Shown here piece by piece: positions 6,449 through 23,373 of a DNA stretch of 25,317 bases. The stretch is from a virus: the IMG/VR virus record IMGVR_UViG_3300023249_000007, positions 1-25,317 of that record; one strand, given 5' to 3'. A program made the translations under genes and the position numbers. How positions within the stretch are numbered: position 1 is the first letter of the stretch; each line of letters starts with the position of its first letter. The notes under the pieces were generated by a model. It made no database searches and was not told the origin of the DNA. It saw only the letters and a list, made by a program, of their open reading frames with translations.

Positions 6449-8635
6449 ATGGCATTATTAGTGAACCCCAGAGGGAGGGTCGTTGAAATAGATGACCAAC
6501 GACATATAGAAAAGAGAATTAAGGAAGGATTTCGGTTCGCCAATAAAACTGAAAAAAGAACGTACTACAGAGAAAGAAGAAGAGTAGAACCCACACAAGA
6601 AGGATGTGGGATTTTTTTTAGAAAGAATAATGACAATCCACACGGTTACGGGCAGTCTACTGCACCTTTAATTAGGGCTTTAGAGGATACTGGGCTTAGT
6701 GTAACAAGTGATTATTCAGGACAAGAGGTTGGAGTGGTGTATTCGTACCCACACCCGTTAGAGAGCTTACAGACAGAAAAGAAAGTTTTATATTCTATGT
6801 TTGAATCTACAAAAATAGATCCTGCTTGGAAACCTTATTTAGAAATGGCGGACAAGATATTTGTACCCAGTAAGTTTTGTCAAGATGCGTTTGCTAGTAG
6901 AGGAGTTTCTAGTGAGGTTATTGCGTTGGGATATAATCCTGACAATTTTTATTATCAAGAGAAAAAGAATGACGGGGTGTTTACTTTCACTATGTACAAT
7001 GCGTTTGACCAGAGAAAAGGTTGGGACATTGTGTTTGGTGCGTTTGTTGAGGAGTTTGGTAAGCAGGAAGATGTAAAACTAATTCTTAAAAGTGTCCAAA
7101 GGAAATTACCGTTTCCTATTTTAAGAAGCCAGTATCCAAACGTAGAAGTAATTTTAGAAAAAGTAGACCAAAGGGAGTTAAGAGAATTGTTGTGGGAGAC
7201 CGATTGTTTTGTATTCCCTAGTAGGGGGGAGGGGTTCGGACTGCCTCCTTTGGAAGCGTTGGCGTGTGGTACTGCTTCTATTATTCCAAACGGTAGTGGT
7301 ATGAGTGAGTATTTTAATGACGAATATTTCATAGAATTAGAAATAGAAGGACTAAGACCCGCTATTTATGAAAACTTTGATATTAAAGTAGTCGGCGAAA
7401 TGATTGAGCCAAGTAAAGAAGATCTAAAAAAGAAAATGCGATGGGCGTATGAGAATAGAAACAAGGTGTGGCAAATGGGATACGAGGGTTCTAAATGGGT
7501 CAAGGATAATTACACTATACAAAAGACGGGTATAAAACTAGCTAATGAATTAAGGAAATTAGGAGTTAGAAGACCAGAAGCGAGGAGTGTTGTTATGAAT
7601 CCTAAAAAGAATAGAAAATCGGTAGCTTTCTTCTTAAAGAACAGAGATATGTATTCAGGGGGGAGGATATTTGTGTATCAGATAATTCAGGCGTTATGTG
7701 AACTAAATTATGATGTTACTATGTATACTAATATGCGACCACCTTGGGAAGACGATTTGAAATGGAATAGAGATTACAAAACAGAAATTATGTCTGTAGA
7801 AGAGTTGTTAGAATTGGAAGTTGACGCAGATATTTATATGGGGGCTGTAGTAGAAGGCAATGTAGCGTGTGCTAGAAACGGTATAAGAACAGGCAAGCCA
7901 GCGTATTGTTTTATGTTTGACCCTATTCCTATGGTGGAGAAGTACGATGCTGATAGATTAGAGGGCGAAAAGCAAGGGTATTTTGAAGTGGATAATTTAA
8001 TAGCTATGGGAGAGAGTATAAAGCCAGTATTTTTAACTAAGTTTGCTCAGGATTTGTGTCGGGACTATTACGAAAAAGAGGGTAGTGTTTTGCAACCTTG
8101 TGTGAACGATAAAATAGCGGATAAGTATAAAAGTAAAAGAGAAAACATAGTTATTGCTTCAGCTACTACAGGAGAGAGAGACAAAGGATTTGAACAAGCG
8201 TTAAAGGTGTTTTCATTAGCACCAGACGATTGGAAGTTTCATATTTTCACAAGTTCAATGAGTTCTCAATTGAATGAATGGGTATCTAGGTATGGATTAG
8301 GGGATAGAGTCGTAGCTCATTATGACAGACCAGATTCAGAGAAGTATGAAATGTATTCTAAAGCAAAAGTAATGTTTTGTCCTAGTCCTTACGAAGGGTA
8401 CGGTATGTGGTTAGCAGAAGGAAGGTATATGGGGCTTGAGTGTGTCATTATTGATTCAGGGGCATTGAGGGAAGTCGCAGGTACTGATAAGCATATACAT
8501 ATAGCCAATAGGGACGATGATTTGGATCTAGCAAAGAAATTGGAGAAAGCAATGAAGGTAAACAAGTTTATTGCTAGAAAGAAAGAGTTTAAGTTTGATA
8601 ATTTAGTAGATAATTTAAGAAACCTGCTCAAATGA
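6449..8635 (+). CDS. Two-domain GT4-type glycosyltransferase
   Basis: A 728-residue fusion of two GT-B glycosyltransferases of the GT4 type, which move sugars from nucleotide-sugar donors to an acceptor. Domain 1 spans about residues 48-385 and carries the donor-site E-x7-E motif from E261 to E269 (EGFGLPPLE). Domain 2 begins near residue 389 and carries a second one from E649 to E657 (EGYGMWLAE). The first 45 residues (LLVNPRGRVVEI, then KRIKEGFRFA) are not glycosyltransferase-like and resemble short N-terminal modules of some phage structural proteins, possibly a virion-targeting tag; this is inference. It is the first gene of a five-gene cassette and overlaps the next by an ATGA. The acceptor is unknown: capsid, tail, phage DNA and host surface glycan are all possible. 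Confidence 0.9.
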   Translation: MALLVNPRGRVVEIDDQRHIEKRIKEGFRFANKTEKRTYYRERRRVEPTQEGCGIFFRKNNDNPHGYGQSTAPLIRALEDTGLSVTSDYSGQEVGVVYSYPHPLESLQTEKKVLYSMFESTKIDPAWKPYLEMADKIFVPSKFCQDAFASRGVSSEVIALGYNPDNFYYQEKKNDGVFTFTMYNAFDQRKGWDIVFGAFVEEFGKQEDVKLILKSVQRKLPFPILRSQYPNVEVILEKVDQRELRELLWETDCFVFPSRGEGFGLPPLEALACGTASIIPNGSGMSEYFNDEYFIELEIEGLRPAIYENFDIKVVGEMIEPSKEDLKKKMRWAYENRNKVWQMGYEGSKWVKDNYTIQKTGIKLANELRKLGVRRPEARSVVMNPKKNRKSVAFFLKNRDMYSGGRIFVYQIIQALCELNYDVTMYTNMRPPWEDDLKWNRDYKTEIMSVEELLELEVDADIYMGAVVEGNVACARNGIRTGKPAYCFMFDPIPMVEKYDADRLEGEKQGYFEVDNLIAMGESIKPVFLTKFAQDLCRDYYEKEGSVLQPCVNDKIADKYKSKRENIVIASATTGERDKGFEQALKVFSLAPDDWKFHIFTSSMSSQLNEWVSRYGLGDRVVAHYDRPDSEKYEMYSKAKVMFCPSPYEGYGMWLAEGRYMGLECVIIDSGALREVAGTDKHIHIANRDDDLDLAKKLEKAMKVNKFIARKKEFKFDNLVDNLRNLLK

Positions 8636-9537
8636 AAATAGGATATGTTTTGTACGATTATCCACTACCTAGTGAAACGTGGATACCACTTGAAATAGAA
8701 GAGTTTATTATTAGAGGTTACGATGTTAAAGTACACCGACTTCAATATCCTTATGTAGATATAAGTGATTGTGATTTCATTCTATCTCATTTTGCTCATA
8801 TAGCACTTAAAGCTGCGAAGTTTAACAAGCCGTTTGGATTCGTTGCACACGCTTGGGATATTTGGACTGATAAGGGTAAGAAGTTCAGAGAAGTAACAAA
8901 AGACCCTAATTGTAAGTTTGTAGGATATATAACGAGCTATCATAAAGAGAAGTTCATGGAATGGGGAGTTCCTGAAGATAAGTTGGTATTCTGGGGTGCT
9001 AGTGTGGACGTTGATAGATTGAAAAGGACAAGAACTATGGGTGGTCAAGTTATATGTGGAGGTAGGTTTGTAGAAAAGAAAGGTTTAGACACAGCAATTA
9101 AAGCAGTACCCGACATAATGGTATTTGGGGACGGGGAATTAGCTCCTAAATTAAAAGCCATATCTAACAGGGCGAAGTTTCTAGGTTGGGTGGATAGAGA
9201 GGGTGTGTTTGATTTGTTTCAGAAGTCGTGGTTATTAGTAGCACCCTCAAGAGTGGCAGGAGACGGGGATACAGAGGGCATATCAACATTAGTATTAGAA
9301 GCGTTGTGTATGGGACTACAAGTAATAACTACTAAGGTAGGTGGACAAAGGGATTTAGAAAAGTTTGGGGATAGAGTACATTTTGTTAAGCCAAACGATG
9401 TTGAAGCCATAAGAGAATTAGTAAAGACGTTACCTCATAATTACGATTTAAGTGCTAGAAATATAATAGCTCAAGAAAGAAGCCCTAAGGCAATAGTGGA
9501 TAGTGTGGAACATAAAATATTAGAGGTAATGAAATGA
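8632..9537 (+). CDS. GT4-type glycosyltransferase
   Basis: A 301-residue GT-B enzyme. The C-terminal half has the family's donor-binding pattern: CGGRFVEKKGLDTAIKAV, then VFGDGEL, then E-x7-E from E215 to E223 (EGISTLVLE). The N-terminal half, starting MKIGYVLYDYPLPSETWIP, is the acceptor-side Rossmann domain; the phrase SETWI is common in enzymes of polysaccharide synthesis. There is no signal peptide or membrane segment, so it is cytoplasmic. It is joined to both neighbours by ATGA overlaps, which points to translation as a set. It probably adds a second sugar to the chain built by this cassette; sugar and acceptor cannot be deduced. Confidence 0.9.
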   Translation: MKIGYVLYDYPLPSETWIPLEIEEFIIRGYDVKVHRLQYPYVDISDCDFILSHFAHIALKAAKFNKPFGFVAHAWDIWTDKGKKFREVTKDPNCKFVGYITSYHKEKFMEWGVPEDKLVFWGASVDVDRLKRTRTMGGQVICGGRFVEKKGLDTAIKAVPDIMVFGDGELAPKLKAISNRAKFLGWVDREGVFDLFQKSWLLVAPSRVAGDGDTEGISTLVLEALCMGLQVITTKVGGQRDLEKFGDRVHFVKPNDVEAIRELVKTLPHNYDLSARNIIAQERSPKAIVDSVEHKILEVMK

Positions 9538-10376
9538 AGGTACTTTGGATCGCAGACTTTTTATTAAAAGATAATAAGGGGGGTGCACAACAGACTAATA
9601 GTGTAATGATAAAAGCAGGAAGGAAAAGAGGTCATTCTATTCGGGTGGTAAGTGGGGGCTCTCTGCCCGATTCTAAGGGTAGCTATGATGTCATTGTGAT
9701 TAACAACGTAACTAAGTATACAAAAGAGCAGATAGAGGGACTGGTAGCCACAGGGAGGGTAATTAGGTATGAACATGACCACTGGGTAGCAGAAAATTAC
9801 CCAGAATTATATAAAGAGGTCAAACACACGATATTTTTAAGTCCTTTTCATAAAGAAAGCATAGAAAAGCAAATAGGATACAAAATTAAAAACTCAAGTT
9901 TAGTGCCTTCTCCAATAGATACAAAAAGATTTACACTAGGAAAAGAGAAAGAAGATAATACCGTAATTTATACAGGGAATATTTGTAAAGAAAAGGGTAT
10001 TGAAGGACTGATAGAATACGCTTTAGAGAATAAACACTTGAAGTTTTATGTTATAGGTTGGGGTGCTATGGTAGAAGATGTTAAAAAAATTGATAACATA
10101 CAATACCTAGAAGGAATGGAACAAGAAAAGTTAGTAGAGTATTACCAGAAGTGTGAGTATTTTTACCATAGACCGACATTGAAAGAGCCGTTTGGAAGAA
10201 CAGTTGTAGAAGCGTATTTATGTGGGTGTAATTTATTACTCAATAATAACGTAGGTGCTATATCTTGGGATTGGGATTATAGCGATTATAATTTAATTCA
10301 AAAGAAGGTTCAATCTCAATCTAATTTTTGGAACATAATAGAAAATGAAATACAAACATCAGGGAATATGGAGTGA
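9534..10376 (+). CDS. GT4-type glycosyltransferase, short
   Basis: A 280-residue GT-B enzyme. The N-terminus MKVLWIADFLLKDNKGGAQQTN has the acceptor-domain loop. TVIYTGNICKEKGIEGLIEYA opens the donor domain, and E-x7-E begins at E218 (EPFGRTVVE). It is shorter than usual GT4 enzymes, mostly at the C-terminal helix. Its ATG overlaps the previous stop, and AGAGGT upstream is one of the few purine-rich ribosome sites in this cassette. The last 32 bases overlap the following methyltransferase in another frame. With the preceding two genes, the cassette encodes four GT domains, enough for a short oligosaccharide. Confidence 0.88.
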   Translation: MKVLWIADFLLKDNKGGAQQTNSVMIKAGRKRGHSIRVVSGGSLPDSKGSYDVIVINNVTKYTKEQIEGLVATGRVIRYEHDHWVAENYPELYKEVKHTIFLSPFHKESIEKQIGYKIKNSSLVPSPIDTKRFTLGKEKEDNTVIYTGNICKEKGIEGLIEYALENKHLKFYVIGWGAMVEDVKKIDNIQYLEGMEQEKLVEYYQKCEYFYHRPTLKEPFGRTVVEAYLCGCNLLLNNNVGAISWDWDYSDYNLIQKKVQSQSNFWNIIENEIQTSGNME

Positions 10377-10881
10377 GTTGCTTCCTAGTTTAAGTTGGAG
10401 TAGAAATTGGCACGAAAAAGAAGACAACGAAATCCTTTGTAAGTATGCTGAAAAAATAAGCGGGCATATTTTAGAAATTGGCAGTGCAGAGGGACAATCG
10501 GGAATATCAATGTTACTAGCAAACGATAGCGTGTATTGTGCTATGGTAGAGCCGTTTGTTACTACTAACTTACTTGTGAACATAAAGGCAATGGAGTTAG
10601 GGGACAGGACAATTATTTTACCTACTACATCAGAAAAGGTGTTTCTACCACCACTAGGATATGAGTTAATATTTATAGACGGCGTTCATACTTACAATAT
10701 GGTCAAGCACGATTTAGAGAAGTTTTCTCAAACGGGTGCTAAGTGGATTATACTTCACGATGTGAATAAGCCAGAGATAGCCAAAGCAGTTGGAGAGTTT
10801 ATATTAAAAGGGGATTATGAGACTGAATATTTAGGAGAGAACATTCAGGTATTATCTAAAATTAAAATAGACCGAAAATGA
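10345..10881 (+). CDS. Class I SAM methyltransferase, small
   Basis: A 178-residue Rossmann-fold methyltransferase of the Methyltransf_24 type. The SAM-binding motif LEIGSAEGQSG is at residues 43-53, an acidic second strand is MVEPF, and IFIDGVHTYNMVKHDLEKF followed by LHDVN carries the acidic/His residues that bind metal in sugar O-methyltransferases of this group. Lying among glycosyltransferases and a nucleotide-sugar dehydratase, it probably O-methylates a sugar, perhaps the terminal unit or the deoxyhexose made by the next gene. A role on protein or DNA is less likely from context. It overlaps the previous gene by 32 bases and the next by ATGA. Confidence 0.8.
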   Translation: MKYKHQGIWSELLPSLSWSRNWHEKEDNEILCKYAEKISGHILEIGSAEGQSGISMLLANDSVYCAMVEPFVTTNLLVNIKAMELGDRTIILPTTSEKVFLPPLGYELIFIDGVHTYNMVKHDLEKFSQTGAKWIILHDVNKPEIAKAVGEFILKGDYETEYLGENIQVLSKIKIDRK

Positions 10882-11885
10882 AGAAAGCATTTATTACGGG
10901 CTGTACTGGACAAGATTCTGCTCATTTGTCTAAGTTATTATTAGAAAAGGGCTATGAAGTGGTCGGTGGGGTTAGAAGAAGTGCAGAGAGAAGTTATTGG
11001 AGGTTAGAAAAACTGGGAATCAAGGATAGGATAAAGTTTGTAGATTTTGATCTACTTGATTATCACAATATGGTAGAAGTAATTAGGGAAGGTCAATTTG
11101 ACGAGATTTATAATTTAGCGGCTCAATCGTTTGTGGGGACTTCTTTTAGACAGCCGTTTTATTCTCTTAAATGTAATGGACTAGCAGTATGTGAGTTAGT
11201 AGATATTATTCATCAATTTAGTCCTCAATCTAGGTTTTATCAAGCTAGTACGAGTGAGATGTTTGGCAAGGTAAGAGAAACACCACAGAGCGAATGGACA
11301 CCGTTTAATCCTAGTAGTCCTTATGGAATAGCTAAACTAATGGCTCATAACTTTGTGGAAATGTATAGAGATAGTTACGACTTCCACGGGTGTTGTGGAA
11401 TACTTTTCAATCACGAAGGAGAATTAAGAGGTAACGAGTTTGTTACGAAAAAGATTACTAATTATGTAGCTGATTATAAGAATGGTAAGGTAAAGGATAC
11501 TTTGAAGTTAGGGAATATCAATGCTAAAAGGGATTGGGGATACGCAGGGGATTATGTGGAAGCCATGTGGATAATGATGCAATTAGACAAGCCAGACACT
11601 TATGTTGTGGGGACAGGTAAGCAATATTCTGTGAAAGACTTGGTTAAAACTGCGTTTAAGTGTGTAGGAATAGATATCAAATGGAAGGGGAAAGGAGTAG
11701 ATATAAAAGGAGTAGACAAGGAAACAGGCAAGGTCTTAGTAGAAATAAGCGAAGAGTTTTACCGACCTAATGATGTAGAAACTTTATTAGCAGACAATAG
11801 AAAGATAAGAAACAGATTAAAATGGCAACCTAGAACGTCTTTTGAGAAGATGATAGGGAAAATGGTTGAAGATAGGTTAGATTGA
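10878..11885 (+). CDS. gmd: GDP-mannose 4,6-dehydratase
   Basis: A 335-residue short-chain dehydratase. The NAD(P)-binding loop is TGCTGQD at residues 7-13. The catalytic set is complete: T125 and E127 in ASTSEMFG, then Y149-x3-K153 in SPYGIAK. NHEGELRG is the family's NHE loop. It converts GDP-mannose to GDP-4-keto-6-deoxy-mannose, precursor of rhamnose-, fucose- and perosamine-type sugars. No reductase, epimerase or aminotransferase follows in this window, so the product would have to be finished by host enzymes. It closes the cassette, ATGA-linked to the methyltransferase, and fits a phage that supplies its own donor for glycosylation. The close family relative is GDP-6-deoxy-mannose reductase, but the motifs favour the dehydratase. 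Confidence 0.93.
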   Translation: MKKAFITGCTGQDSAHLSKLLLEKGYEVVGGVRRSAERSYWRLEKLGIKDRIKFVDFDLLDYHNMVEVIREGQFDEIYNLAAQSFVGTSFRQPFYSLKCNGLAVCELVDIIHQFSPQSRFYQASTSEMFGKVRETPQSEWTPFNPSSPYGIAKLMAHNFVEMYRDSYDFHGCCGILFNHEGELRGNEFVTKKITNYVADYKNGKVKDTLKLGNINAKRDWGYAGDYVEAMWIMMQLDKPDTYVVGTGKQYSVKDLVKTAFKCVGIDIKWKGKGVDIKGVDKETGKVLVEISEEFYRPNDVETLLADNRKIRNRLKWQPRTSFEKMIGKMVEDRLD

Positions 11886-13015: not shown

Positions 13016-14590
13016 ATGGCAGATTTTCCAACAGCTAAAACAGAAGCAGTTGACAATGTAACAGACGTTTTAGCTAAGCATGTAAATAATTTAGAGGATA
13101 AAGTTGGTATTGATGGAAGTGTTGACACGGACTCTTTGGATTACAAAGTAAATCATTTTTCCGAAACAGACCCAGTATATACGGCTTGGGACAAAGATTA
13201 CGATGATTTAACTAATACACCTACTATACCAACTAGGGATAGTTTAGGTTTAGATACAGATGATACAGTAACTTTCGCTAACTTATCGGGAACAAATACA
13301 GGAGATAATGCCACAAATAGTAATTATAGTGGTTTAGATACAGCCAAATTGAATATAGACCAAACCACCCCACAAACCACAGTAGGTACTTTTACTTTTC
13401 CCGTTCTCCACACCCCAACCATAAATGGCGGAATATTAGCTAATGACGATATAACCATTCAAAGTACAACCCACGCCACAAAGACAACAAGTTATGTGAT
13501 TTTACAGCCAACAAGTGGCAACGTCGGCATCGGCACCACCTCCCCTAATAATTTACTTCAAGTTAATGATTTAATCTCTTTTACCAATGCTGACTGGCGA
13601 ACTCAAATTGGTTACCAAGCTGGTAAGTATGATTTAGGGCAATACAATACTTGGATTGGTTATCAAGCTGGCTCGGCTAATAATTCTACAGGTAAAACTG
13701 ACGCTGCCGATTATAATACCGCAGTTGGCTATCAGGCTCTCTACTCCAACACCACAGGTAGCAGAAACTCTGCTCAGGGATATGCTGCTCTTCACTCCAA
13801 CACCACAGGTAGCTACAACTCTGCTCAGGGATATGCTGCTCTCCGCTACAACACCACAGGTAGCTACAACTCTGCTCAGGGAATGTATGCTCTCTACTCC
13901 AACACCACAGGTAGCTACAACTCTGCTCAGGGATATGCTGCTCTTCACTCCAACACCACAGGTAGCCAAAACTCTGCTCAGGGAATGTATGCTCTCTACT
14001 CCAACACCACAGGTAGCTACAACTCTGCTCAGGGAGTGTATGCTCTCTACTCCAACACCACAGGTATCAGAAACTCTGCTCAGGGATATGCTGCTCTTCA
14101 CTCCAACACCATTGGTTCTTCTAATACAGGGGTTGGTTACAATACAGGCAGAGGTATAACTTATGGTTCAGGTAATACTATTTTAGGAGCAAATGTTACT
14201 GGACTTGCTGCTGGTTTGACTAATAATATTATTCTGGCAAATGGTACTGGGGCAATAAAAGCACAAAATGATGGAACAGATTGGAACTTTACAGGCAACG
14301 TCGGCATCGAGATAACAGCTCCAACAGCTAAACTTCATATAGTAGGTTCAGCAGATACCCAACAACTCATTGTCAAAGGTAACGCTACCCAGACAGCTAA
14401 CCTTGTAGAAATTCAAAACTCAAGTGCTACAGTTTTAGTAAAAGTTTCTGGTACTGGTGTATTCTTTCCCTTACAGGCAGCAACTGCCTCTGCTCCAGCT
14501 TATGTTAAAGGTGGATTGTATTTTGACCTAACATTAAATAAGTTGATGGTTGGAGGTGCAACTGGGTGGGAGGCTCTCAGTAGTGCTTAA
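13016..14590 (+). CDS. Repeat-containing trimeric fiber/adhesin-like protein
   Basis: A 524-residue protein. The N-terminus (residues 1-40, with VTDVLAKHVNNLEDKVGI) is a coiled-coil start seen in many phage fiber proteins. Next come Thr/Asn-rich strands and an NVGIGTTSPNN motif near residue 170. Eight 17-residue units of the form NSAQGYAALHSNTTGSY follow (residues 234-369), related in pattern to YadA/Hep_Hag head repeats, which form trimeric beta-rolls. NTG/GSGN repeats follow, then a second NVGI motif and a C-terminal GLYFD..LNKLMVGG..GWEAL segment. No intramolecular chaperone peptidase is visible. It is probably a head or tail fiber that binds a surface. The repeat part is C-rich and T-rich on the coding strand, unlike the purine-rich neighbours, which suggests recent acquisition or expansion. 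Confidence 0.78.
   Translation: MADFPTAKTEAVDNVTDVLAKHVNNLEDKVGIDGSVDTDSLDYKVNHFSETDPVYTAWDKDYDDLTNTPTIPTRDSLGLDTDDTVTFANLSGTNTGDNATNSNYSGLDTAKLNIDQTTPQTTVGTFTFPVLHTPTINGGILANDDITIQSTTHATKTTSYVILQPTSGNVGIGTTSPNNLLQVNDLISFTNADWRTQIGYQAGKYDLGQYNTWIGYQAGSANNSTGKTDAADYNTAVGYQALYSNTTGSRNSAQGYAALHSNTTGSYNSAQGYAALRYNTTGSYNSAQGMYALYSNTTGSYNSAQGYAALHSNTTGSQNSAQGMYALYSNTTGSYNSAQGVYALYSNTTGIRNSAQGYAALHSNTIGSSNTGVGYNTGRGITYGSGNTILGANVTGLAAGLTNNIILANGTGAIKAQNDGTDWNFTGNVGIEITAPTAKLHIVGSADTQQLIVKGNATQTANLVEIQNSSATVLVKVSGTGVFFPLQAATASAPAYVKGGLYFDLTLNKLMVGGATGWEALSSA
13715..14122 (+). repeat. Tandem 51-base repeat, eight units, in-frame
   Basis: Eight consecutive 51-base units encode 17 residues each. The first (NTAVGYQALYSNTTGSR) is divergent and seven begin NSAQG. 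Within the array, stretches such as CTCTACTCCAACACCACAGG are identical between units, and two unit types (GYAALHS and GMYALYS) alternate. Near-identity at DNA level implies recent duplication or homogenisation. Because 51 is a multiple of 3, copy number can change without losing the frame. Confidence 0.92.
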
Positions 14591-15284: not shown

Positions 15285-16067
15285 GTGGCTAAGTTTGGAA
15301 CAATCAAATATGGAGAAGGGAGGTATGGAGTTCAATCGGAGAGGACTCTTTATATTCAGGGTAAGTTAGCAGGAGGTTCAGAGAGAAGCATTTACATTTG
15401 GGGGACTACTGATGATGGTTCAGAGAGGGCATTATGGGTATACGGACAATCCAGTTCTAATAGCGAGAGAGCATTATATCTTGAGGGTGAATCTGTAATA
15501 AGTGAAAGAGCCATTTACCTAGAGGGAATTGACATCGAAAACAGTTCTGAAAGGATATTGTATATACAGGGTTCTAGTAGTTCTTATTCTGAGAGAGGAT
15601 TTTACATAATAGGAGGACTGGGAGGTTCGAGTGTAAGGACACTATATATCTCTGGAATTGGTACAAGTAGTTCAGAAAGAACTATTTACATAGGAGCAGG
15701 GTCTAGTGATACTTCCGAAATTGGACTCTGGATTGAGGGTTGCTTAACTGATTACGAGGAGAGGGAGATATATGCCTCTGGGGTCGCTACAAGCGATTCT
15801 AACAGGAACTTATATATCTGGGGGTATATTGATACCTATTCGGAAAGAGGTATATATATAGATGCGAATATGGGTAGTGAGAGAGGGTTGTATATTATTG
15901 GACTGGGTTGTCCGTGGTATTCAGACACTAAGGAAGATTGGAAAACTAAAGATACAAAGGATTGGTATGATAAGGAGGGTTCTTTGTGGCAACAGGATAA
16001 TAGCTCAAAATGGTATAATATAGAAGAAAAATCCTACAAGGTTAAGACACGAAAACCTAAATGTTAA
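15285..16067 (+). CDS. SER-repeat virion protein (about fourteen 14-residue repeats)
   Basis: A 260-residue protein from a GTG start. The first 17 residues (MAKFGTIKYGEGRYGVQ) resemble the openings of some phage tail proteins. Residues 18-206 are about fourteen copies of a 14-residue unit with consensus SER.LYI.G plus a variable, Ser/Gly/Asp-rich pentapeptide; examples are SERTLYIQG, SERALYLEG and SERGLYIIG. Some copies are degenerate (SEIGLWIEG, SNRNLYIWG). The last 50 residues are Trp/Lys/Asp-rich (EDWKTKDTKDWYDKEGSLWQ) and look like a separate binding domain. The units should each form one strand and turn, suggesting a repetitive beta structure. The same repeat recurs in the tail hub ORF at 21646. 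It is probably a virion fiber or adhesin; the exact place on the particle is unknown. Confidence 0.8.
   Translation: MAKFGTIKYGEGRYGVQSERTLYIQGKLAGGSERSIYIWGTTDDGSERALWVYGQSSSNSERALYLEGESVISERAIYLEGIDIENSSERILYIQGSSSSYSERGFYIIGGLGGSSVRTLYISGIGTSSSERTIYIGAGSSDTSEIGLWIEGCLTDYEEREIYASGVATSDSNRNLYIWGYIDTYSERGIYIDANMGSERGLYIIGLGCPWYSDTKEDWKTKDTKDWYDKEGSLWQQDNSSKWYNIEEKSYKVKTRKPKC
15336..15902 (+). repeat. SER repeat array (42-base period), upstream copy
   Basis: Coding repeat with a period of about 42 bases and roughly 13.5-14 units. The SER codons are flanked by variable codons, so amino-acid conservation is higher than DNA conservation. A segment at 15831-15851 (GATACCTATTCGGAAAGAGGT) closely matches 22438-22458 in the hub array, indicating common descent or exchange. 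Confidence 0.85.
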
Positions 16068-18931: not shown

Positions 18932-19254
18932 AGAAAGGTTGGCTTTATAGTATCATTGATGTACTTTCTTCGGAATATAGTTGGACTCTTGACTACATAT
19001 TAGATTATTTACACTTGGGAGATTTATTAGGTTTTCTAAATGTTATAGAGAAACGAAAGAAAAGAGAGGCACTCTTATCATTAGCAATAATTCATAATCC
19101 TTTCTCAAAAGACCCTAACACGTTATTTAGGGAGTTAAGGGAAGATACAGAACCTTATAAAAACGGTATAGATAGAGTAGGAATTGATGATTTAAAGAAC
19201 AAATTGAATGATAAATCTAAGTTTATAAAAGTAAAAAATGGCAAGTCTAGGTGA
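18889..19254 (+). CDS. Tail assembly chaperone, frameshift extension (gpGT T-part)
   Basis: The -1 frame is open from 18871 to 19254 and has no good start: the only candidate is a TTG at 19015 without a ribosome site. Joined to the short form through the A7 site it gives a 227-residue fusion. The extension contains GWLYSIIDVLSSEYSWTLDY, then YLHLGDLLGFLNVIEKRKKREALLSLAI, matching the T-domain pattern of helical proteins that bind the tape measure. The extension overlaps the tape measure start by 17 bases. Coordinates here cover the part after the slip only; the protein is made as one chain with the upstream gene. Confidence 0.82.
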   Translation, partial: RVRGNQQDIQDSQVEKGWLYSIIDVLSSEYSWTLDYILDYLHLGDLLGFLNVIEKRKKREALLSLAIIHNPFSKDPNTLFRELREDTEPYKNGIDRVGIDDLKNKLNDKSKFIKVKNGKSR

Positions 19255-21091
19255 TATAACAGCAACACTTGTGGCTGATATTAAAGATTTTGAGGCGAAA
19301 ATGGATAAAGCCAAAAGTACTCTTGACGGGATTCAGAACACAGGTAAAAAAACAGGGAAATCACTAACAACAGCGTTCAAAGATGCAGAGAGAGGATCTA
19401 AAATGTTCCTAGGTACTATGACTGCTTTGGGTACTGCTATTGGTGTTTATATTGGGAAGGCAACCCTAACTGCGGCAAGAACAGAAACAATGGGTATTGC
19501 TATGGAGGCAGTTGCTAAATCAACAGGAGTTTCTACAAAGGTGTTAAAAGAGCAAGAGGAAATATTGAAAAAGCAAGGTATTACTACTCAAGAGTCGAGG
19601 AATATCCTAACAAGATTTATGCAATCTCAGTTAGATGTAGCAGATGCCAGTAAAATTGCTCGTGTTGCACAGGACTTAGCAGTTGTGGCAGGAGAGGATT
19701 CTAGTGCAATGACAGGGAGGTTGACAGACGCAATTGCTACTATGAACCCTATGTTGCTTAGACAGGCAGGTATTGTAATGAATCAGGGAGAATTGTTTGA
19801 TACTTATGCAGAAACTCTTGGGAAAAGTGGTGATGAATTGACACAGGTGGAGAAGAAACAGGCAATGGTTAATATAATAATGGAGGAAGGTAAAAAGGTA
19901 GCAGGTTCGTATGATATGGCGATGGAAACAGCAGGTAAGAAAATGGGTTCACTAAAGAGATATTTTGAAGAAGCAGAAAATACTATTGGAAATGTTTTTC
20001 TACCTACTTTTGGTCTACTGATAGATAAGGTTACGGAGTTTATGAAACAGGTTACACCAGAAAAAGTTGAAGCAGTATTTGCTAAACTTAATGAGTGGTT
20101 TCCAGTTATAGTTGCTTTAATATTAGGTGCTGCACTTCCTGCGATAGTTGCAATGGGGGGTGCATTATGGACTGCATTCGCACCATTATTACCTTTTATT
20201 GCTGCGGGAGTTGCTCTTGGGTTGATACTAAAATCTCTTGGTGTGGATTTTACTGATGTAAGTGCTTTTATTCAAGACAAGTTTGTACCTGCGATAATTA
20301 AAATATGGGAGTGGATTCAAAAGACATGGTTAGTCATTAAAGATAAATGGGAAGAGTACGGGCAACCTATCTTTGATATGATAGTTGATTTTATAGAAGT
20401 AACAATAATACCTGCTTGGGAAAAGTTAAAAGAGAGTATAAAAATTGCTATGGAAGAGTCGGGTATGGAAATGGAGGATTTTAAGAAAATTCTTAAAATT
20501 GTAGCCATAGTCATTGGTGGAGTTTTACTTGGAGCTGTATTAGGAATTATAGCTGCGTTAAGTGGGCTTATGACTGTTCTGGCTAAAGTGATTGAGTGGA
20601 GTGGAGAATTAAGAAACAAAACAGTTGAGAATTTTAAGGAGATTAAGGAGAAGATACAATGGCACGTGGATAAGATAAAGGCAATATTTAAAGCAGATAG
20701 TTTTAAGCAAGGCATACTGAAAGCAATGAAGTATCCGTTTGAGGCATTTTGGCATTATATAACAGGATTATTTGATAAGATAAAAAACAAGATCCAAGAC
20801 GCATTAGATTTAACTAAGAGGCACAGTCCGTCTGTAATTGACAGGTTGAAATTTGGGATTAAGAAAGCAGAGAAAGAAATCAACAAATTAGGAAGTATAG
20901 AACTTGCCCCTATAGGTAGAGTTTTAACAGAGAATTATACAGGAATGTCTGGTGGTACGGGTGCTATGAATTTAAGTATCAATATGTCAGGTGCTAACAT
21001 AAGCTCACCAGAAGTGGCTCAGGAGTATGCAGAACAAATAGGAGACGCTATTATTGGTAAATTAAGAACTAACAGGAGAAGTTATGGCTAG
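19238..21091 (+). CDS. Tail tape measure protein
   Basis: A 617-residue, mostly helical protein in the standard position after the tail chaperones. Residues 1-60 open with SLGDITATLVADIKDFEAKMDKAKSTLDGI, typical of tape measures of phages with small genomes. Residues about 60-230 form a helical domain rich in Ala/Met. Two hydrophobic stretches (about 290-335 and 420-450) could act in membrane passage on DNA entry. The C-terminus has QDALDLTKRHSPSVIDRLKFG, a conserved tape-measure end motif, and a hydrophilic tail. Its length suggests a rather short tail of the order of 90-100 nm by the usual 0.15 nm per residue. No lysozyme or peptidase domain is visible. Confidence 0.94.
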   Translation: MASLGDITATLVADIKDFEAKMDKAKSTLDGIQNTGKKTGKSLTTAFKDAERGSKMFLGTMTALGTAIGVYIGKATLTAARTETMGIAMEAVAKSTGVSTKVLKEQEEILKKQGITTQESRNILTRFMQSQLDVADASKIARVAQDLAVVAGEDSSAMTGRLTDAIATMNPMLLRQAGIVMNQGELFDTYAETLGKSGDELTQVEKKQAMVNIIMEEGKKVAGSYDMAMETAGKKMGSLKRYFEEAENTIGNVFLPTFGLLIDKVTEFMKQVTPEKVEAVFAKLNEWFPVIVALILGAALPAIVAMGGALWTAFAPLLPFIAAGVALGLILKSLGVDFTDVSAFIQDKFVPAIIKIWEWIQKTWLVIKDKWEEYGQPIFDMIVDFIEVTIIPAWEKLKESIKIAMEESGMEMEDFKKILKIVAIVIGGVLLGAVLGIIAALSGLMTVLAKVIEWSGELRNKTVENFKEIKEKIQWHVDKIKAIFKADSFKQGILKAMKYPFEAFWHYITGLFDKIKNKIQDALDLTKRHSPSVIDRLKFGIKKAEKEINKLGSIELAPIGRVLTENYTGMSGGTGAMNLSINMSGANISSPEVAQEYAEQIGDAIIGKLRTNRRSYG

Positions 21092-21638
21092 TTATTCGTT
21101 AACAATAGACGGTACAGACAGAACCCTAAATGTTTCTAATAGGGCTATAGAGATTACGGATGAAATGGGTTCAGACGCCTCTGTAATGAGTTTTACGATG
21201 GTTATTAGGGATTCAGGGGTATTACCAGAGTGCGATCAGGAGGTGGTTATTACAGATGGTGATGATGTAAAGTTGTTTGGAGGGAGGATATTAAAACTAA
21301 ACCCAATTAAGAGGGGTTCTCTTATTGAGTGGAGAATAGATTGTGTTGATTACACTAGAGATTTAGATAGAAACTTAGTAGTAGAAGGGTACGAAGATAA
21401 GACCGATAAGGAAATAATCGTTGATATTGTTGATAACTACTGTGGTGGTACTGGGATTACTTATGACAATGTTACAGAAGGTATTTCAATATCAAATATG
21501 ACTTTCAGTTATATGCCACCATCAGAGTGTTTTAGTAAAATCTGTAAGATGACAGGTAGGGCTTGGTATATTGATTATGACAAAGATATTCATTATGGTA
21601 CAAAGTTTAGAGACCATGCACCATTTAATATAATATAG
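21084..21638 (+). CDS. Tail hub protein, N-terminal half (split gene)
   Basis: A 184-residue protein overlapping the tape measure stop by 8 bases, with AGGAG 6 bases upstream. It starts with an immunoglobulin-like/beta-barrel region (SYSLTIDGTDRTLNVSNRAIEITDEMGSD), continues GGRILKLNPIKRGSLIEWRIDCVDYTRDLDR, then NMTFSYMPPSECFSKICKMTGRAWYIDYDKDIHY, which are hub motifs. It stops at HAPFNII, where the full-length family continues toward LRNRVYVRGG. That C-terminal half is found in the next ORF. The hub therefore appears split by an inserted cassette; see findings. Alternatives are a real two-chain hub, a shifted reading frame, or a one-base sequence error. Confidence 0.82.
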   Translation: MASYSLTIDGTDRTLNVSNRAIEITDEMGSDASVMSFTMVIRDSGVLPECDQEVVITDGDDVKLFGGRILKLNPIKRGSLIEWRIDCVDYTRDLDRNLVVEGYEDKTDKEIIVDIVDNYCGGTGITYDNVTEGISISNMTFSYMPPSECFSKICKMTGRAWYIDYDKDIHYGTKFRDHAPFNII

Positions 21639-21645
21639 AAGAGAT

Positions 21646-23373
21646 ATGGCATCTGTAGATACTAATAGTGAGAGGGGTTTATACATAAATGACACTACTG
21701 AGAATTTAATAAGGAAAACAGTTATTGAAGATTTCACAGGAGTAACACTTCCTTCAGGGTGGAGTACTTGGACTGTTGGTAGTGGTAATTCTTACTCCGT
21801 CAATGGCTATTTACAAGAGAATACAGGATCTAGTGGTAGATGTGATATTGGTGCATATAAGGATACCAATGTTGATTTTGGAGTAAGTGGAGCTATTTAT
21901 ACAAAAATTACTGATATTAGTTTAGATAGTGGATTTGCTAATTTGGAGTTAATATTTGAAGATAATACATATCCAGATGTTCATTCGTTAAATGTAGGTG
22001 TTAATAGTGAATATGTAACATCTGGGGCAAATACAGGTTCAGGTTGGGATACTGTAGATTTCATTGTCAATACTGGATATTCGTACTTTAGGATTAGGGT
22101 TCAAAATAAGACAGCATACTTTGAAGCATCTACTGATGCTGAGAATTGGGTTGAGATTGCAAATACATCGTTTGATGTTGATGTTGCTGACTGTAGACTT
22201 CACGTATGGACTTGGGATGAAGACAATGCAGGTACATCAAGATTTGACGATATTACTTATCAATGGATTGGAATATCTGATGAAAGAAAGTTGTATCTAC
22301 AAGGTTCTTCAGTTAGCAATAGTGAAAGAGATTTATATATTCAAGGTATTGCAACGACAAGTAGTGAAAGGGATTTATATATATCAGGAGGTGGAGTATT
22401 AAACTCTGAAAGAGGATTATATACAAGAGGGGTTGAAGATACCTATTCAGAAAGGGGTTTGTGGATTGACGGAACTCTTGTGAGTAGCTCTAATAGGGGA
22501 TTTTATATAGAGGGAATAGTTAATGGGAGTGCTTTGTATAAAAACTTTACGATTGGATTAGACAATTCTGCGTTAAGAAATCGTGTTTATGTGAGAGGTG
22601 GTACATATCTTTCAGATGAAGTTACGATTAAACAGGTAGCTGATGGTGAACAAACGGTGTTTTATTTGCCAGAGAAACCACATGATATTAGTATTCTTGA
22701 GGGGGTTACTTCCAAGACGGTAGGAATAAAGAACATAGACACATATACTGATTATGATTACCTTTTGAATTATCAGGAAAAGTATATTGAGAAAGATAAT
22801 GCCCCTACTGTTGATACGGTTTTATCAATTAGTTACAAGTATGATGTCCCTGTATTAGTCGCAGTTGAAGACTCTACTTCCATAGAGAAGTACGGACAAT
22901 TAGAATACATTATCTTTGACAACAAAATAACCAGTATTGAACAAGCAAGAGATAGGGCAAGTGCTGAACTAACTGATTACGCAGAATCAATAACAAGTGG
23001 TCATTTTGAGACCCACACAGCAGGATTCAAAGCAGGGCAGTTCCTAAAGGTTGACCTTCCTGACCTAGATATTGATGAAAGGTTTATGGTAAAGAGTGTG
23101 AGGGCAAAGTCGTTCGGAGGTGGAAGTTTTACTTATGACATACAGATAGTTTCCACAGAAATGTTGGGAATTATAGGGTTCTTAATAAGGATACTGGAAG
23201 ACAATAAGAATACACTTAGTATATCTTCAGACGAGGTAGTAGATGAAATTACTTCCATTACAGCAGAGTCATTTAGTTTAGTCGCAGACACTCCTGTGCT
23301 AACTACTCACGAAGGGGCATTTAAGTATGATAGTGATGCTGATTGGGATATTGCCGAGTGGGACGAGGTCTAA
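21646..23373 (+). CDS. Tail hub C-terminal half with lectin-like domain and SER repeats
   Basis: A 575-residue protein starting 7 bases after the first hub half. Order: one SER repeat at residues 7-15 (NSERGLYIN); a beta-sandwich at about 20-205 starting EDFTGVTLPSGW and ending RFDDITYQW, resembling DUF1349/concanavalin-like lectin folds; six SER repeats at 211-290; then from residue 300 FTIGLDNSALRNRVYVRGG, EQTVFYLPEKPHDISI and KTVGIKNIDTYTDYDYLLNY. The last part is the C-terminal half of the hub. A helix/acidic tail follows. The lectin domain and SER array probably project from the tail tip and could bind glycans. There is only a weak GAAGAG ribosome site. No catalytic residues are obvious. 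Confidence 0.82.
   Translation: MASVDTNSERGLYINDTTENLIRKTVIEDFTGVTLPSGWSTWTVGSGNSYSVNGYLQENTGSSGRCDIGAYKDTNVDFGVSGAIYTKITDISLDSGFANLELIFEDNTYPDVHSLNVGVNSEYVTSGANTGSGWDTVDFIVNTGYSYFRIRVQNKTAYFEASTDAENWVEIANTSFDVDVADCRLHVWTWDEDNAGTSRFDDITYQWIGISDERKLYLQGSSVSNSERDLYIQGIATTSSERDLYISGGGVLNSERGLYTRGVEDTYSERGLWIDGTLVSSSNRGFYIEGIVNGSALYKNFTIGLDNSALRNRVYVRGGTYLSDEVTIKQVADGEQTVFYLPEKPHDISILEGVTSKTVGIKNIDTYTDYDYLLNYQEKYIEKDNAPTVDTVLSISYKYDVPVLVAVEDSTSIEKYGQLEYIIFDNKITSIEQARDRASAELTDYAESITSGHFETHTAGFKAGQFLKVDLPDLDIDERFMVKSVRAKSFGGGSFTYDIQIVSTEMLGIIGFLIRILEDNKNTLSISSDEVVDEITSITAESFSLVADTPVLTTHEGAFKYDSDADWDIAEWDEV
22276..22515 (+). repeat. SER repeat array, hub copy
   Basis: Six units of about 42 bases encoding SDERKLYLQG, SERDLYIQG, SERDLYISG, SERGLYTRG, SERGLWIDG and SNRGFYIEG with variable linkers. 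A seventh, separate unit lies at 21664-21690. DNA around 22438-22458 nearly matches 15831-15851 in the other array. Confidence 0.85.

Follow-up and report, generated by a model that had tools for sequence, protein, structure and literature searches.

Two-chain organization predicted for the tail hub of an uncultivated tailed virus, with a probable adhesin head and a SER-repeat stalk on the second chain

The closest described counterpart of the locus presented here is the tail hub of the gp27/gp44 type (YqbQ-like, PF24032). Components of such structures may occur fused or separate: the hub and the spike are two chains in T4, gp27 and gp5, and one chain in VgrG. The junction there lies between hub and spike, whereas the one considered below lies inside the hub. 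Display of sugar-binding domains by structural proteins of the tail tip is also familiar, namely from evolved Dit and other tail proteins with inserted carbohydrate-binding modules, described for lactococcal 936 phages and others (PMC6669499, PMC9128512, PMC10688798). Such modules are placed within a single chain, and in Dit, while in our case it is the hub that is interrupted, one end of the module being left free. A search for a split hub in the literature, limited to open-licence papers, returned nothing relevant, which is weak evidence. We regard the hub described here as a probable further case of a tail-tip protein decorated with adhesion domains; in nearly all relatives that we examined the hub is one chain.

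The analysed stretch of DNA, hereafter the window, is a 25.3-kb fragment from an uncultivated tailed virus. The features relevant to its tail tip are as follows.

15285..16067, + strand: separate SER-array gene with 14 repeats, beside a head-tail adaptor gene
19238..21091, + strand: tape measure protein (phrog_991, E = 1.8e-16), overlapping the start of ORF1 by 8 bases
21084..21638, + strand: ORF1, predicted N-terminal half of the hub, 184 aa, ending in HAPFNII and TAG (hub profile positions 2-183, E = 4e-73)
21639..21645, + strand: 7-base gap between the ORF1 stop and the ORF2 ATG, read from the sequence and the same in assemblies L007, L010 and L011
21646..23373, + strand: ORF2, 575 aa, composed of a SER repeat, a probable ConA-like head, six SER repeats and the predicted C-terminal half of the hub
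21667..21690, + strand: first SER repeat, SERGLYIN, at ORF2 residue 8, the earliest recognisable element of ORF2
21721..22260, + strand: head domain, ORF2 residues about 26-205 (about 180 residues), with weak ConA-like matches
22279..22530, + strand: stalk of six tandem 14-residue SER repeats, recognised by motif count against shuffled sequence
22525..23373, + strand: predicted hub C-terminal half, from the native link GSALYKN onward and then NRVYVRGG (hub profile positions 183-464, E = 7e-108)

The tape measure gene directly before ORF1, and its overlap with it, place ORF1 in the hub position, and a gene following that of the tape measure protein is what the hub family would lead one to expect. 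The layout proposed in the first-pass annotation was recovered in full, with the HAPFNII end, the SER repeat, the domain, the six SER repeats and NRVYVRGG about 310 residues into ORF2 (ALRNRVYVRGG begins at about residue 308). The stalk repeats start at ORF2 residues 212, 226, 240, 254, 268 and 282, and the strict SER motif was observed 6 times in ORF2 against 0.0004 expected in shuffled sequence.

When both ORFs were aligned to a profile built from 60 intact hubs (466 positions), ORF1 and the end of ORF2 met at position 183 with no residues missing between them. ORF2 also matched PF24032 (YQBQ) above the cut-off (E = 3.6e-7), and ORF1 matched a tail protein family (phrog_400, 1.8e-4) and a baseplate hub family (phrog_196, 0.0015). 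These alignments identify ORF1 and the end of ORF2, at the level of sequence, as the complementary parts of a single tail hub of the gp27/gp44 type. Relatives of each half were collected by IMG/VR scans, and in about 128 distinct ORFs of related hubs the two halves share a frame; among the hub relatives examined, a split at the hub loop was found only in the lineage of the window and in L012. The closest intact hubs are those of L079-L082 (halves 70% and 73% identical), L009 and L013, each a single protein of about 465-470 residues that lacks the insert, and such single ORFs span the junction point when the boundaries are aligned. Complementary profile halves and uninterrupted relatives thus bear out the claim that an adhesin-like cassette interrupts a hub gene, and a look for homologues in which the two parts are unrelated separate proteins left the split hub standing. 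A single chain is usual in the family, though not known to be required, and the window hub departs from it in being encoded as two chains, cut at one loop, with the head and stalk on the N-terminus of the second.

The fold can be judged from the intact relative L081 (halves 70 and 72% identical), for which AlphaFold gave a model with pLDDT of 81.7. Over its whole ordered length this model resembles known hubs, namely the MuSo2 tail protein 3cdd (Z 22.2), Mu gp44 1wru (Z 20.6) and T4 gp27 (Z 17.9). The gp27/gp44 hub fold is therefore indicated for the intact relative and, through it, predicted for the split hub. In the L081 model the cut position falls in a loop at about residues 183-189, between strands 167-172 and 190-197, and the order of secondary-structure elements suggests that this is the border of the alpha/beta region and the second beta-barrel. 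The link across this loop reads FNIS-GTEDYRR or FNIT-GTQAYKN in intact relatives (pattern FNIS-GTxxYKN). In the window both sides of this link are accounted for: ORF1 closes with FNII, and GSALYKN begins within the last SER repeat, the final stalk residues GS doubling as the first residues of the native link. Hence the suggestion that NDTTENLIRKT, next to the first SER repeat, is what remains of the native link, flanked by two insertions, finds no support; no such remnant is needed, because the hubs of both the window and L012 are cut at the same residue without loss.

L012 carries a diverged split hub, whose halves are 67 and 71% identical to those of the window. Its first ORF ends in HAPFNIS and is followed by TGA, TAA, three bases and the ATG of the second, both ORFs being in the same frame and the second having no clear ribosome-binding site. 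The second chain consists of an unrelated 168-aa head, seven SER repeats and the hub C-terminal half from GTALYKN. From residue 1, this head matches the start of the head-SER protein of L191 (33%, E = 1e-19) and also that of a podovirus tail tubular protein (32%). Alignment of Met1 to Met1 makes it plausible that the start codon arrived with the module.

The head of the window is probably a ConA-like beta-sandwich, a candidate sugar-binding domain. Of the concanavalin-like sandwich named in the first-pass annotation, the domain at residues 26-205 stands, and the fold is putative: matches to Pfam GH43_C2 (E = 0.046) and to phrog_15454 (E = 0.003) are weak, and the AlphaFold model of ORF2 is poor (mean pLDDT 46.5), the head (pLDDT about 30) and the stalk being unusable. 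As a carbohydrate-binding domain in a tail-tip protein, the window head offers a weak likeness to GH43_C2, such domains being clearer in relatives. In viral contigs and phage records the head has relatives in its own lineage only and none beyond it; none were found in 192 genomes of one phylum, in a search that had no positive control, and Megablast of the tail region against phage records gave no match.

Free-standing head-SER genes occur elsewhere (L180, L191, L188, L198 and L195) and share with ORF2 the order of an N-terminal head, 14-residue SER repeats and a C-terminal part. In contrast to ORF2, their C-terminal part is not the hub C-terminal half, and they adjoin head or other structural genes. 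The heads include LamG in L180 (E = 2e-16), DUF2341 with LamG in L191 (E = 1e-14) and, by appearance, a LamG-like domain in L188; L195 and L198 carry other heads. SER arrays as genes of their own reach about 67 repeats in relatives (L180); besides the one in the window they were seen, likewise beside the head-tail adaptor gene, at L177:2-2017, L178:2-2005 and L180:1187-4990, the last beginning with LamG. The array gene of the window is a possible source of the stalk, and comparison of its repeats with those of the stalk is ambiguous both on this point and on the history of the split.

As for the junction, we reject a one-base sequencing or assembly error as unlikely, since other samples yielded assemblies with the same sequence there. 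L007 agrees with the window throughout ORF1, ORF2 and the junction, and L010/L011 agree in ORF1 and the junction, although elsewhere 36 and 49 mismatches set these assemblies apart. The possibility that the two ORFs are one continuous frame was examined as well and does not refute the split. It could still be argued that the junction yields a single chain, either through a programmed +1 frameshift or by readthrough of the stop codon, as the frames in the window are exactly +1 apart and that of ORF2 is open for four codons before its ATG. We consider this very unlikely. The TAA at 21631-21633 closes the ORF2 frame upstream and leaves two codons only at which the shift could take place, and the frames are related differently in the window and in L012, so that frameshifting is not a feature that the two have in common. 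Stop recoding or readthrough can be rejected as well, since reading through the ORF1 TAG meets another stop after eight codons and L012 has the tandem TGA TAA. Moreover, alignment of the L012 head to other proteins from Met1 indicates a true start. Between the two routes offered in the first-pass annotation, a +1 change of frame loses ground and reinitiation becomes the likely one: termination-reinitiation over 7 bases would be the simplest way to produce the ORF2 chain in the window and its counterpart in L012, and AGAAGAG (21637-21643) before the ORF2 ATG is a possible ribosome-binding site. The clean position of the insert between two halves of a conserved gene might also bring to mind a self-splicing element, an intein or an intron, removed from the protein or the RNA. 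This is extremely improbable, as no Rfam intron match and no Pfam or NCBIfam splicing or homing domain was found in the insert, its adhesin-like content is wholly different between the two lineages, and stops separate the halves.

Another reading is that the hub is broken, either as a pseudogene or as a rare defective variant, with another protein or gene copy acting as the hub. The contigs are fragments, and a plain in-frame stop does occur in the hub of L030. However, in comparison of the window with L012 the N-terminal half shows dN of 0.24 and dS of 1.44 and the C-terminal half dN of 0.23 with saturated dS, within the range of neighbouring tail genes, and in the trees the branches of the split hubs are not elongated (0.25 against 0.21 for the intact L081, 0.12 against 0.17 for the intact L013). 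Both halves thus appear to be under purifying selection and look functional, as the first-pass annotation had supposed, evolving no faster than intact hubs. In addition, the split is constant across several assemblies and reappears in L012 together with an unrelated head, and no second hub copy was found in the window or in the L012 contig, both of which are fragments; a broken hub is, in our view, quite unlikely. The halves might alternatively have separate roles, with ORF1 forming a smaller hub ring and ORF2 being an independent adhesin anchored by its hub-like end. Judged by secondary structure, the halves seem to part at a domain boundary and each could fold alone, but they are exactly complementary, no residue has been lost or duplicated, and their conservation pattern is that of intact hubs, which makes this division of roles unlikely.

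In the trees, L012 is placed beside the intact L013 (99/95 support), and the window beside the intact L081 and L009. A single origin with vertical descent, under which the split hubs would be sisters, was rejected by the AU test (p = 0.0006 for the joined halves, 0.003 for the N-terminal and 0.007 for the C-terminal half). To judge from these phylogenies, the split would have arisen twice, been laterally transferred, or undergone repeated loss. Mosaicism is evident among the tail genes: in the tube and collar genes that flank the hub, the window is nearer to L012 than to L081, which makes lateral transfer possible.

The explanation that we favour, and hold to be probable, is fusion of a head-SER gene to the C-terminal half of the hub, so that the hub comes in two chains and its display arm has a free end. 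An adhesin gene encoding a head and a SER stalk would have been joined, own start codon included, to the hub C-terminal half in the loop that separates the alpha/beta region from the second beta-barrel, the cut in the hub being a by-product of keeping the N-terminus of the adhesin. Such a fusion is plausible because free-standing head-SER genes exist and the L012 head aligns from residue 1. The hub would then be made as ORF1, supplying the N-terminal half, and ORF2, supplying head, stalk and C-terminal half, the latter probably translated by termination-reinitiation across the 7 bases. At the tail tip the two chains may come together to fill a single hub position, presumably with the stoichiometry of a trimer. 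The arm that bears the head would be free at one end, in contrast to a loop insertion, which is tethered twice, and the head might bind a surface glycan.

The same cut with a different head in L012 suggests a workable means of mounting adhesins that can be exchanged, and if the hub does work as two chains with swappable heads, phages could alter how they adhere while keeping the rest of the tail tip as it is. A broader proposal, which we put forward tentatively and with somewhat less than even confidence, is that splitting is a reusable route, in which the extra hub N-terminus takes whole head-SER genes, start codon included and exchanged between phages, at a loop that also accepts lectin insertions within a single chain. 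Insertions of the latter kind, in frame, about 190 aa long and with weak legume-lectin similarity, were found at the same loop in the one-chain hubs of L217, L220 and L222, which suggests that the cut loop is a preferred site for display.

Decorated hubs in L217, L069, L165 and L074 show the same family serving as a platform for adhesion domains, though all are one chain. The lectin-like single-chain hubs lie at L217:958-2964 and L222:2243-4249. The hub at L069:4977-7754 is a single chain of 925 aa that holds a beta-propeller and a further inserted domain, and that of L074 bears SER-like repeats, also in a single chain. In a hub relative from a PVC-group MAG (L165:1459-4125), two LamG domains replace or precede the N-terminal part. 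Together with relatives in Patescibacteria genomes (L166, L167), L165 offers hints only as to the host. The stop in the L030 hub (L030:4980-5645) is one in-frame TAA at a site that is open in L029, probably a nonsense change or an error. In genome G039 (contig C12; L269, L272), from the phylum of a Gottesmanbacteria MAG, a SER array lies about 7 kb from a distant hub, probably in a prophage.

Elsewhere in the window, the head gene block includes, at 6449-11885, three glycosyltransferase-like genes, one methyltransferase-like gene and one GDP-mannose dehydratase-like gene, as judged by sequence appearance. The gene at 13016-14590 encodes a virion protein that contains a YadA-like repeat (NTTGSYNSAQGYAALHS) and matches phrog_6002 and phrog_23837.
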